From Bacteroidetes bacterium GWF2_43_63 (GTDB lineage: Bacteria > Bacteroidota > Bacteroidia > Bacteroidales > DTU049), in contig MEOQ01000041.1 in NCBI GenBank assembly GCA_001769275.1, positions 1 to 64,000 of the forward strand: a stretch of DNA of 64,000 nucleotides. Reading direction: 5' to 3'. The number at the start of each line of letters is the position of its first letter. Position 1 is the stretch's first letter. Shown piece by piece: positions 3,301 through 7,230 of the stretch. The notes beneath the pieces were generated by a model, which saw only the letters and a list, made by a program, of their open reading frames with translations, did not search any database and was not told the origin of the DNA. Made by a program: the position numbers and the translations under genes.

Positions 3301-3309
3301 CGCCGCATG

Positions 3310-3595
3310 CCGATCTCTCTGCGTCGATGCAATCGACCTGAGTGCATCGGTCTGGAAAGGGGCTTCCAACAACGCAGAGAAGTCCCTTCAACAGGCATCG
3401 CCGATCTCTCTGCGTCGATGCAATCGACCTGAGTGCATCGGCCTGGATAGGGGCTTCCAACAACGCAGAGAGGTCGCTCCAATTAGCATCGCCGATCTCT
3501 CTGCGTCGATGCAATCGACCTGAGTGCATCGGCCTGTATAGGGGCTTCCAACAACGCAGAGAGGTCGCTTCGCGACGCACTCAGGTTGTTGGAAG
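3310..3595. repeat. Three tandem 91-bp palindromic units
   Basis: Units begin with CCGATCTCTCTGCG at 3310, 3401 and 3492, so the period is exactly 91 bp with few substitutions between units. Each unit is a nested palindrome: CTCTCTGCGT near its start pairs with ACGCAGAGAG near its end, and CGATGCA pairs with TGCATCG inside. The third unit ends with a further pair, CTTCCAACAAC (3545-3555) with GTTGTTGGAAG (3585-3595). Overlapping open frames on both strands here come from the repetition and are not considered genes. There are no spacers, so it is not a CRISPR array. Confidence 0.92.
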
Positions 3596-5473: not shown

Positions 5474-6613
5474 ATGTTTGAAACACTCTCTTACCTCGCT
5501 TTACAGGAATACTGGTGGTTTCTGGTTTCGATACTCGGATCGGTACTGGTTTTCCTGCTTTTTGTTCAGGGCGGACAAAGTCTGCTTTACACCATCGGTA
5601 AAGAAGAACCACAGACATCGATGCTGGTGAATTCGCTCGGCCGCAAATGGGAATTTACTTTTACTACATTGGTTACTTTTGGCGGTGCTTTTTTCGCGTC
5701 GTTTCCGCTGTTTTATTCCACCAGCTTCGGTGGCGCATACTGGCTCTGGATGCTAATTCTATTTACATTTATTTTGCAAGCTGTCAGCTATGAATTCCGC
5801 TCAAAGCAGGGGAATGTTTTTGGTAAAAAAACCTTTGAATGGTTTCTTTTTCTGAATGGATTTATAGGAACTGTATCACTTGGAGTGGCCGTTGCGACTA
5901 TGTTCACCGGTGGAAATTTTATTCACAATGAAATGAATTTCACTTCGTGGAGCAACAACTGGCATGGACTCGAAGCTTTTGCTAATCCGATCAATGTCGC
6001 GCTTGGTCTTGCCGTTTTCTTTCTGTCGCGGGTAATTGCCATTCTATATTTCAACAGCACCATCAATGACAATTTAATCCGTGAACGAAATAAAAAACAT
6101 TTGCTCATTAATTCAGTTTTATTTCTTGTTTTCTTTCTGACTTTCATTATCGCGTCCTGGCTCATCGACGGCTATGCCTACGATTCTGTAACCGGAAAGA
6201 TTTTCACGGAACCGAATAAATATTTCTACAATAATATTGAGCATCCGCTCACCGGGATATTATTTTTGGTTGGTGTATTGTTGGTTTTGCTGGGCCTTTT
6301 CCGCGGAAATACCTGCTACAAAACATGTGGCGGAAAAGCCCTCTATCCGGTTGGAATAGGTACTTTCCTTACGGTACTTTCGCTTTTCTGTAATCTGGGT
6401 TACAACAACACCGTTTTCTATCCTTCGCTTATTTCCATGCAGAGTGGACTTACAATCGAAAAGGCTTCTTCAAGCCAGTTTACGTTGACCGTTATGAGCT
6501 ATGTGTCGCTGCTCGTACCATTTGTTGCAGCTTATATTTTCTTTGCGTGGCGGGCGCTCAACAAAAAGAAAATCGACATTGATGAAATGAACGACGACTC
6601 ACATAAATATTAA
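5474..6613 (+). CDS. cydB: Cytochrome bd oxidase subunit II
   Basis: Subunit II of cytochrome bd, the partner of CydA in the membrane. The protein has 379 residues and about eight hydrophobic helices, starting with YWWFLVSILGSVLVFLLFVQGGQ, where the family has its W-F-x-x-G pattern. The middle WFLFLNGFIGTVSLGVAVATMFTGGNF matches Bacteroidota CydB. The ATG at 5474 is preceded by a clear Shine-Dalgarno sequence (GAAGGAGG, about 8 bp upstream), unusual in this window and consistent with translational coupling to cydA. A short membrane peptide gene follows after 11 bp. Confidence 0.97.
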   Translation: MFETLSYLALQEYWWFLVSILGSVLVFLLFVQGGQSLLYTIGKEEPQTSMLVNSLGRKWEFTFTTLVTFGGAFFASFPLFYSTSFGGAYWLWMLILFTFILQAVSYEFRSKQGNVFGKKTFEWFLFLNGFIGTVSLGVAVATMFTGGNFIHNEMNFTSWSNNWHGLEAFANPINVALGLAVFFLSRVIAILYFNSTINDNLIRERNKKHLLINSVLFLVFFLTFIIASWLIDGYAYDSVTGKIFTEPNKYFYNNIEHPLTGILFLVGVLLVLLGLFRGNTCYKTCGGKALYPVGIGTFLTVLSLFCNLGYNNTVFYPSLISMQSGLTIEKASSSQFTLTVMSYVSLLVPFVAAYIFFAWRALNKKKIDIDEMNDDSHKY

Positions 6614-6624
6614 AACAAAAAGTC

Positions 6625-6741
6625 ATGTACCTCTCTTCTATATTATGGCTTCTTACCTGGCCCCTGCTGATTTTTGTTTCTTACCAGACAATACGCCTGC
6701 TGTTGAAAAAATACGGCGATAAGCTGGAGAAAACTGAGTAA
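6625..6741 (+). CDS. CydX-like 38-residue membrane peptide
   Basis: A short frame of 38 codons plus stop beginning 11 bp after cydB. It encodes one hydrophobic helix (about residues 5-26, LWLLTWPLLIFVSY...) after an N-terminal MYLSS and before a charged tail (KKYGDKLEKTE). Size, single N-out helix, charged C-terminus and position behind cydB are those of CydX/CbdX small subunits, which bind subunit I and stabilise the hemes. In proteobacterial CydX a Trp-Tyr-Phe-x-W start is typical; here LWLLTWPL holds two Trp instead, so this is an analogue or a distant relative. The call rests on position and architecture. Confidence 0.72.
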   Translation: MYLSSILWLLTWPLLIFVSYQTIRLLLKKYGDKLEKTE

Positions 6742-6783: not shown

Positions 6784-7230
6784 ATGAAGCAATCCAGCTC
6801 AAATAAAGGCTCCAACAAATTGTCGGTGGAGGTTGTATTACTGGCTGCACAGAGCGATCATCAAACACTAGCTCTCTGGGCTGCAGATTGTGCAGAGCGT
6901 GTTTTACCCCTGTTTGCTGATTTGAATCCCGACGACACTCGCCCATCTTTAGCTATAGCAGCCGTCCGCGTCTGGGCATCCGGGCAAATGAGCGTTGGTG
7001 AAGCCCGGAAATCGGCCTTTGCCGCTCATGCAGCTGCCCGTGAATCAGGTTCAACCGCTGCAGCCGCTGTTGCACGTTCCTGCGGACATGCAGCAGCCAC
7101 GGCACATGTGGCTGGACACGCCATCCATGCGGCAATATATGCAATTAAAGCAGTAACACTGGCCGGCAGCGATATTGAAGCTGAATACATTTGGCAACTA
7201 AAGCGGTTGAAAACTCAATCGTCTTATTGA
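6784..7230 (+). CDS. Imm-5-like putative immunity protein
   Basis: A 148-residue, Ala- and His-rich helical protein. The pattern LWAADCAERVLPLFAD, then PDDTRPSLAIAAVRVWASG, AFAAHAAARESG, AAAAVARSCGHAAATAHVAGHA and HAAIYAI matches the Imm-5-like family, annotated as putative immunity proteins of polymorphic toxins, although many members stand alone with no toxin beside them, as here. The conserved Asp, Cys, Glu, Arg and several His could bind a ligand or metal. It is probably cytosolic, with no signal peptide. It is 42 bp after the CydX-like gene, so it could be the last gene of the cyd transcript. The real role is unknown. Confidence 0.8.
   Translation: MKQSSSNKGSNKLSVEVVLLAAQSDHQTLALWAADCAERVLPLFADLNPDDTRPSLAIAAVRVWASGQMSVGEARKSAFAAHAAARESGSTAAAAVARSCGHAAATAHVAGHAIHAAIYAIKAVTLAGSDIEAEYIWQLKRLKTQSSY

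Follow-up and report, generated by a model that had tools for sequence, protein, structure and literature searches.

The short open reading frame that follows cydB in the window, by which we mean the whole stretch of 64,000 nucleotides analysed here (Bacteroidetes bacterium GWF2_43_63, order Bacteroidales, contig MEOQ01000041.1), is a real gene. Judged by its sequence, its product is of the CydY/CioY type and orthologous to CioY of Campylobacter, and by analogy it most likely clamps CydA in the fashion of CydX. The kind of peptide itself is known; what is new here is the Bacteroidales branch of CydY, its losses and its signature in CydA. CydY was described by Allen et al. (2014; PMC4325964, available part) from 15 species, as a frame with one helix that follows cydB, and the description covers epsilon- and deltaproteobacteria, in which the operons encode a CydA with a long Q loop, have no cydX, and the tryptophan of the peptide is absolutely conserved. 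In the available part of a more recent paper, CioY of C. jejuni is a peptide of 34 aa with conserved W, P and Y that co-precipitates with CioA (coIP) and is modelled on CioA like CydX on CydA (PMC11955535, 2025). The name CydY has also been applied to E. coli YnhF (CydH), which is a different protein (PMC6853902, available part). No report of the peptide in Bacteroidota was found by title or by the start of the abstract in a literature sample without most subscription journals and all preprints, and in the available part of PMC11364881 CydX appears only within a reference.

The frame opens with ATG and closes with TAA at 6739-6741, and according to the sequence and the ORF list its 38-aa product is MYLSSILWLLTWPLLIFVSYQTIRLLLKKYGDKLEKTE. 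The first-pass annotation had described 38 codons, one membrane helix and a charged tail, 11 bp after cydB, and had held the frame to be an overlooked real gene of the cyd operon; both statements stand. The C-terminal tail reads KKYGDKLEKTE, and AlphaFold2, run on the peptide alone, predicts a single helix over residues 3-37 with a mean pLDDT of 84.4. The bases preceding the start are AAAACAAAAAGTC-ATG and a clear Shine-Dalgarno site is not seen among them; such sites are rare in Bacteroidota. Profile searches gave no Pfam or NCBIfam family for the peptide of the window, and no solved structure matched the CydY family profile up to E 10.

The genes are arranged in the order DUF4492(cydW)-cydA-cydB-cydY (Table 1), and this cydB is the sole CydB match in its genome. 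The operon is without cydX, a Pfam search having found no PF08173 match. The nearest solved chains to the CydA of the window are those of E. coli bd-II (7ose_A) and bd-I (6rko_A), and its Q loop measures 158 aa vs 78-88 in the other CydA type, lengths that were taken between fixed landmarks chosen here and thus differ from those of PMC4325964. The small membrane protein encoded upstream, DUF4492 or CydW, went unmentioned in the first-pass annotation. Where the sequence reaches far enough upstream, a CydW homologue lies 5' of cydA in 73 of 75 loci of the order and in 39 of 40 from Campylobacterota, and also in all four named gut and oral records (4/4), that is, it is kept where CydY is gone. 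Together, cydW and cydY make two small membrane proteins per operon, and cydW is near-universal in the oxidase clade in both phyla. Terminator-like hairpins occur within 150 nt 3' of cydY in 28 of 103 loci vs 12 of 2060 shuffles, and because they come next the operon seems to end after cydY. Elsewhere in the window, a tandem array with a 91-bp unit (3305-3571; 2.9 copies, 93% matches) lies between a LemA-like gene and cydW, and the gene for a DUF6150 protein at 178-609 on the minus strand contains a 39-bp DNA repeat, its product repeating units of the WKSEA type.

Table 1. Genes of the cyd operon and its downstream neighbour in the window, with one displaced copy of cydY from another genome of the order
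Feature	Position	Strand	Remarks
cydW, DUF4492 small membrane protein, 74 aa	3676..3900	+	PF14899, E 2.9e-24; first gene of the operon; listed start GTG
cydA, cytochrome bd subunit I, long Q loop	3904..5472	+	PF01654, E 2.8e-167
cydB, cytochrome bd subunit II	5474..6613	+	PF02322, E 2.7e-64
cydY (cioY-type), small subunit gene	6625..6741	+	38 aa, core W12-P13-xx-I16-xxx-Y20, one helix
Imm5_like, putative immunity protein gene	6784-7230	+	PF21805, E 1.2e-43; starts 42 bp 3' of cydY
displaced intact cydY	L361 2838-2969	-	order genome

The same frame recurs behind cydB in related genomes, where the first-pass annotation had suggested that it be sought. CydB is present in 11 of the 12 genomes of the window's family, and 10 of these 11 carry the same kind of frame behind cydB, with 35-42 codons and a start 9-23 nt after that gene. 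In G002, the one exception, a copy of 43 codons lies at another place in the genome (E 5e-12), next to an ORF whose translation resembles dihydropteroate synthase. At the level of the order, 119 genomes were searched with the CydB of the window as query and 82 gave a match, 76 of the same long type and six weak (21-31% identity). Profile A2, made of 39 peptide rows (11 of them Campylobacterota) and applied with a cut-off of 1e-5, matched in 48 of the 119, namely in 48/76 genomes with the same CydB type vs 0/43 others (Fisher 1e-13). Forty-six of these 48 matches share contig and strand with cydB and lie 9-624 nt 3' of it, and the remaining two are those of G002 and of G364, whose cydB is cut at a contig end. 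Early counts, made with a limit of 250 nt behind cydB, gave a homologous frame at 50 of the 82 order loci whose CydB is of the long type and at 0 of 27 loci of the other type; later searches added the cydY of L200, L211 and L219 (406-624 nt away), L326 (elsewhere in the genome) and L288 (467 nt). The order also has two genomes, G002 and G778 (contig C225), in which cydY lies away from cydB and is nevertheless intact, and thus it seems to be retained for the sake of its product. Both G716 (L414 on contig C2; contig C75) and G773 have two cydB genes, and every copy comes with a peptide of its own; one of the G716 peptides is without the WP pair. Among 296 genomes of the phylum, the narrow profile A1 (9 rows) matched nothing but the copy in the window, a result that says little on the spread because the other two order members of that sample (G241, G249) are without the gene.

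Outside the phylum, 65 of 150 Campylobacterota genomes have a CydB that is 43-58% identical to that of the window, and A2 matches in 62 of these 65 vs 0 of the 85 others (4e-39), with all 62 matches 10-467 nt behind cydB and on its strand. Since A2 itself includes 11 Campylobacterota rows, a profile from Campylobacterota only was used as an independent test. Built from eight peptides (C. concisus, H. pullorum, the 34-aa CioY of C. coli, two Sulfurospirillum, C. showae, Poseidonibacter and C. gastrosuis), it gives the peptide of the window 35.5 bits (E 8.8e-11, 337 candidate frames) and finds 46 order loci in all, and a profile from 43 Campylobacterota sequences gives the same peptide 39.5 bits. 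It is because a Campylobacterota-only profile finds it that we assign the peptide to CydY/CioY. The key residues are shared by both groups: W12 is kept in 43/49 order and 43/43 Campylobacterota peptides, P13 in 49/49 and 34/43, and Y20 in 42/49 and 42/43.

The gene shows purifying selection: over 17 pairs (617 codons), changes at codon positions 1, 2 and 3 number 118, 63 and 222, so that the third position takes 222 of 403. The pN/pS ratio is 0.27; in the distant pairs, pS comes close to saturation. Any AT-rich stretch of 117 nt may be open, and helix profiles do give scores to hydrophobic frames; still, that the frame is a chance one with a hydrophobic composition is a prospect we regard as negligible. 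This selection goes against it, and so do the co-occurrence with CydB, in two phyla, and the shuffled, antisense and reversed controls. Shuffled versions of the window peptide reach at most 12.2 bits vs the real 39.5 (5000 made, 4792 scored), 46 of 50 order peptides outscore the best shuffle of order peptides (10000 made, 9472 scored), and the antisense of the same regions yields 0 of 355 frames at E<=1e-3. A role for the frame as translated leader or regulator of the Imm5_like gene, rather than as a subunit gene, would agree with the position of that gene close behind on the same strand, and we hold it very improbable. The frame tracks cydB across two phyla, is retained even where displaced from cydB, and conserves its amino acids and not merely its length; moreover, the terminator-like hairpins lie behind cydY, at a median of 6.5 nt past its stop.

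The first-pass annotation called the peptide CydX-like, and this holds in so far as it is probably a CydX-like third subunit; its family, by profile match, is CydY/CioY and not CydX. The same annotation was right that the CydX aromatic motif is absent, for YxxWxxGx15[E/D] (in the form given in the available part of PMC4325964) occurs in 0 of 92 distinct family peptides, that of the window included. Neither the window peptide nor 38 relatives match PF08173, to which E. coli CydX, as positive control, matches with 1.8e-14. With no such motif and no such match, identity with CydX is ruled out. When placed on the CydY profile, E. coli CydX scores 4.6 bits only, and 8 of 1812 shuffles score as high. 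An acidic residue stands exactly 19 positions after the Trp in 55 of the 75 peptides with a WP pair, which equals the W6-E25 spacing of CydX; the CydY of the window has Gly where the family usually has Glu. Identity with CydZ is likewise ruled out, as no family member matches PF10617 and the CydA loop is long.

Losses of cydY were followed on a CydB tree of 134 rows, with 13 near-identical Campylobacter rows left out. Absence is concentrated in one 28-row clade, in which 22 order rows and four named gut and oral records lack the gene and two exceptions keep it, and a few further losses are scattered outside. Within the order, L312 clusters with a named Bacteroides finegoldii record. A plasmid collection provided six named Bacteroidales CydB records, and the four examined have a DUF4492 homologue and no peptide. 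For P. gingivalis, the available part of PMC4668044 gives no cydX, cydY or cydZ and names the upstream gene cydW; a possible reason is that named gut and oral relatives belong to the clade of cydY loss, P. gingivalis itself being outside the tree.

CydA residues change together with the peptide. The discovery set held 51 order and 43 Campylobacterota rows with CydY and 32 rows without, six fast-evolving rows of the latter kind having been left out. Ala137 of CydA is found in 51/51 order and 43/43 Campylobacterota rows with CydY and in 12/32 without, and Leu188 in 47/51 and 43/43 with CydY, while 18/32 rows without have Phe; where the peptide is lost, the residues at these two positions are thus frequently larger. 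Leu188 adjoins His189, which we take to be a heme ligand by comparison with E. coli His186. Changes of Ala to Phe and of Leu to Phe are seen at these positions in L192 and L205 as well, two of the scattered losses. A prediction for CydA positions 34, 137, 188 and 220 was fixed beforehand and then tested on 60 fresh loci, taken among the best matches listed, with all new genera first and with peptide status not yet known; three of them are without CydA at most tested positions and stand outside the counts (39 with CydY, 18 without). With kinship ignored in all p-values, Leu188 occurs in 37/39 vs 5/18 (p 2.9e-7), Ala137 in 39/39 vs 12/18 (p 5e-4) and Phe34 in 33/39 vs 6/18 (p 2e-4), and Lys220 failed validation on these held-out loci (p 0.09). 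Positions 37, 141 and 221, examined besides, gave p 0.002, 0.0097 and 3.8e-5 on the same loci, again ignoring kinship. One of the five held-out loci with Leu188 and no CydY, that of G845, has a CydY candidate missed by the genome-wide search. Similarly, L288 was at first counted as lacking CydY and had the residues of loci with it, and its gene was then found 467 nt downstream. In the tree, the discovery columns and the tree-aware scan, L200, L211, L219 and L326 count as having CydY, and L288, wherever included, still as lacking it. Four loci without CydY (L284, L291, L298, L318) keep the residues of those with it.

Of the CydA and CydB columns, 363 were near-invariant; the tree-aware scan tested the 72 of these in which 12% or more of the rows without CydY deviate, and it left out every second Campylobacterota row. 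Ala137 ranks second (2.9 to 0.0 pairs) and Leu188 fourth (2.8 to 0.1), and CydB columns 5 and 243 rank beside them, with only seven supported independent pairs. Relaxed columns make up 5/34 in TM1/5/6 of CydA vs 7/80 in its other helices and are not significantly enriched there (p 0.26). Mutual information between CydY and CydA over 87 pairs yields no contact map fit for use and favours no set of CydX contacts (TM1 0.36-fold, TM5 0.63, TM6 1.67), and its top column, A228, may merely separate the two phyla. On the simplest reading, a groove on CydA would hold the CydY helix and be refilled upon loss. A bolder version, which we offer tentatively and with considerable doubt, is that a helix at the CydX site is old but dispensable in long-Q-loop bd oxidases, and that the cydY-less Bacteroidales, among them cydY-less Bacteroides, Parabacteroides, Prevotella and Phocaeicola, have refilled the groove through changes in CydA (Leu188 to Phe; Ala137 to Ile, Phe or Gly) and now run without a third helix there. 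If this is true, CydA residue 188 alone predicts the presence of the peptide, as agreed for L288.

As to its working, we consider it quite probable that cydY, the orthologue of cioY, encodes a subunit of 38 residues and one helix in a bd oxidase with a long Q loop, a gene which is cotranscribed with cydWAB and whose helix would sit on CydA and steady the heme site. Cotranscription is suggested by the 11-bp gap and by the hairpins after cydY in relatives. Once the peptide is translated, its short N-terminus would, from the charges, face outward and its Lys-rich C-terminus inward. Like E. coli CydX, its helix would lie close to the bundles that bear the hemes, against CydA helices 1, 5 and 6, and could steady the assembly or the stability of the heme site. 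We propose this docking and heme role because of the co-precipitation and model of CioY with CioA (PMC11955535, available part) and because CydA residues relax upon cydY loss. In the available parts of the structural papers, CydX contacts CydA helices 1, 5 and 6 and is termed a clamp for the heme-coordinating bundles (PMC6853902), and AppX makes the same contacts on AppC with the same clamp role (PMC8585947). The peptide might instead be a bd subunit at another site, for example the place of CydH (YnhF), which closes the oxygen channel of E. coli bd-I, with CydW occupying the CydX place. The operon has two small membrane proteins, as has E. coli bd-I, and a near-universal CydW (73/75, 39/40) next to a repeatedly lost CydY is what would be expected if the latter were an accessory plug. 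We think this unlikely, as the C. jejuni model sets CioY on CioA in the way of CydX on CydA (PMC11955535, available part), the CydA columns that relax on loss include positions in TM1, TM5 and TM6, and the W-to-E spacing is CydX-like.

The CydY/CioY family is hereby extended into Bacteroidota, as a probable third subunit kept by 48 of the 76 sampled order genomes with such an oxidase, and no Pfam or NCBIfam model covers it. The natural losses of cydY and the co-changing CydA residues bear on what a CydX-like helix does, and cydW and cydY should both be included when such a bd oxidase is expressed.

Among known systems, CydX and AppX (PF08173) of E. coli bd-I and bd-II are alike in being short one-helix genes that close a cydAB operon whose CydA has a long Q loop, and in the Trp-to-acidic spacing of 19 shared by most CydY, a likeness that we state without claiming common descent; CydY differs in having a WP pair in the helix and no YxxWxxGx15[E/D]. 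CydW/DUF4492 (PF14899), known from P. gingivalis (PMC4668044, available part), is also a small membrane protein of the same operon, but it is encoded upstream of cydA, has about 74 aa and another sequence, and persists where CydY is lost. CydZ (PF10617) and CydH/YnhF are single-helix proteins of other bd oxidases, of which CydZ pairs with a short-Q-loop CydA and CydH is encoded by an unlinked gene in E. coli. CydY/CioY of Campylobacter shares with the peptide of the window its position after cydB, similar length, one helix with Trp at its start, the conserved W, P and Y, a long-Q-loop CydA without cydX, and a CydB 43-58% identical. The window's group, however, belongs to an order of Bacteroidota and not to the epsilon- or deltaproteobacteria, and its Bacteroidales members have Lys-Lys before the acidic residue, have lost the gene repeatedly within the order and sometimes carry it displaced from cydB, and the copy of the window in addition has Gly at the usual Glu position.
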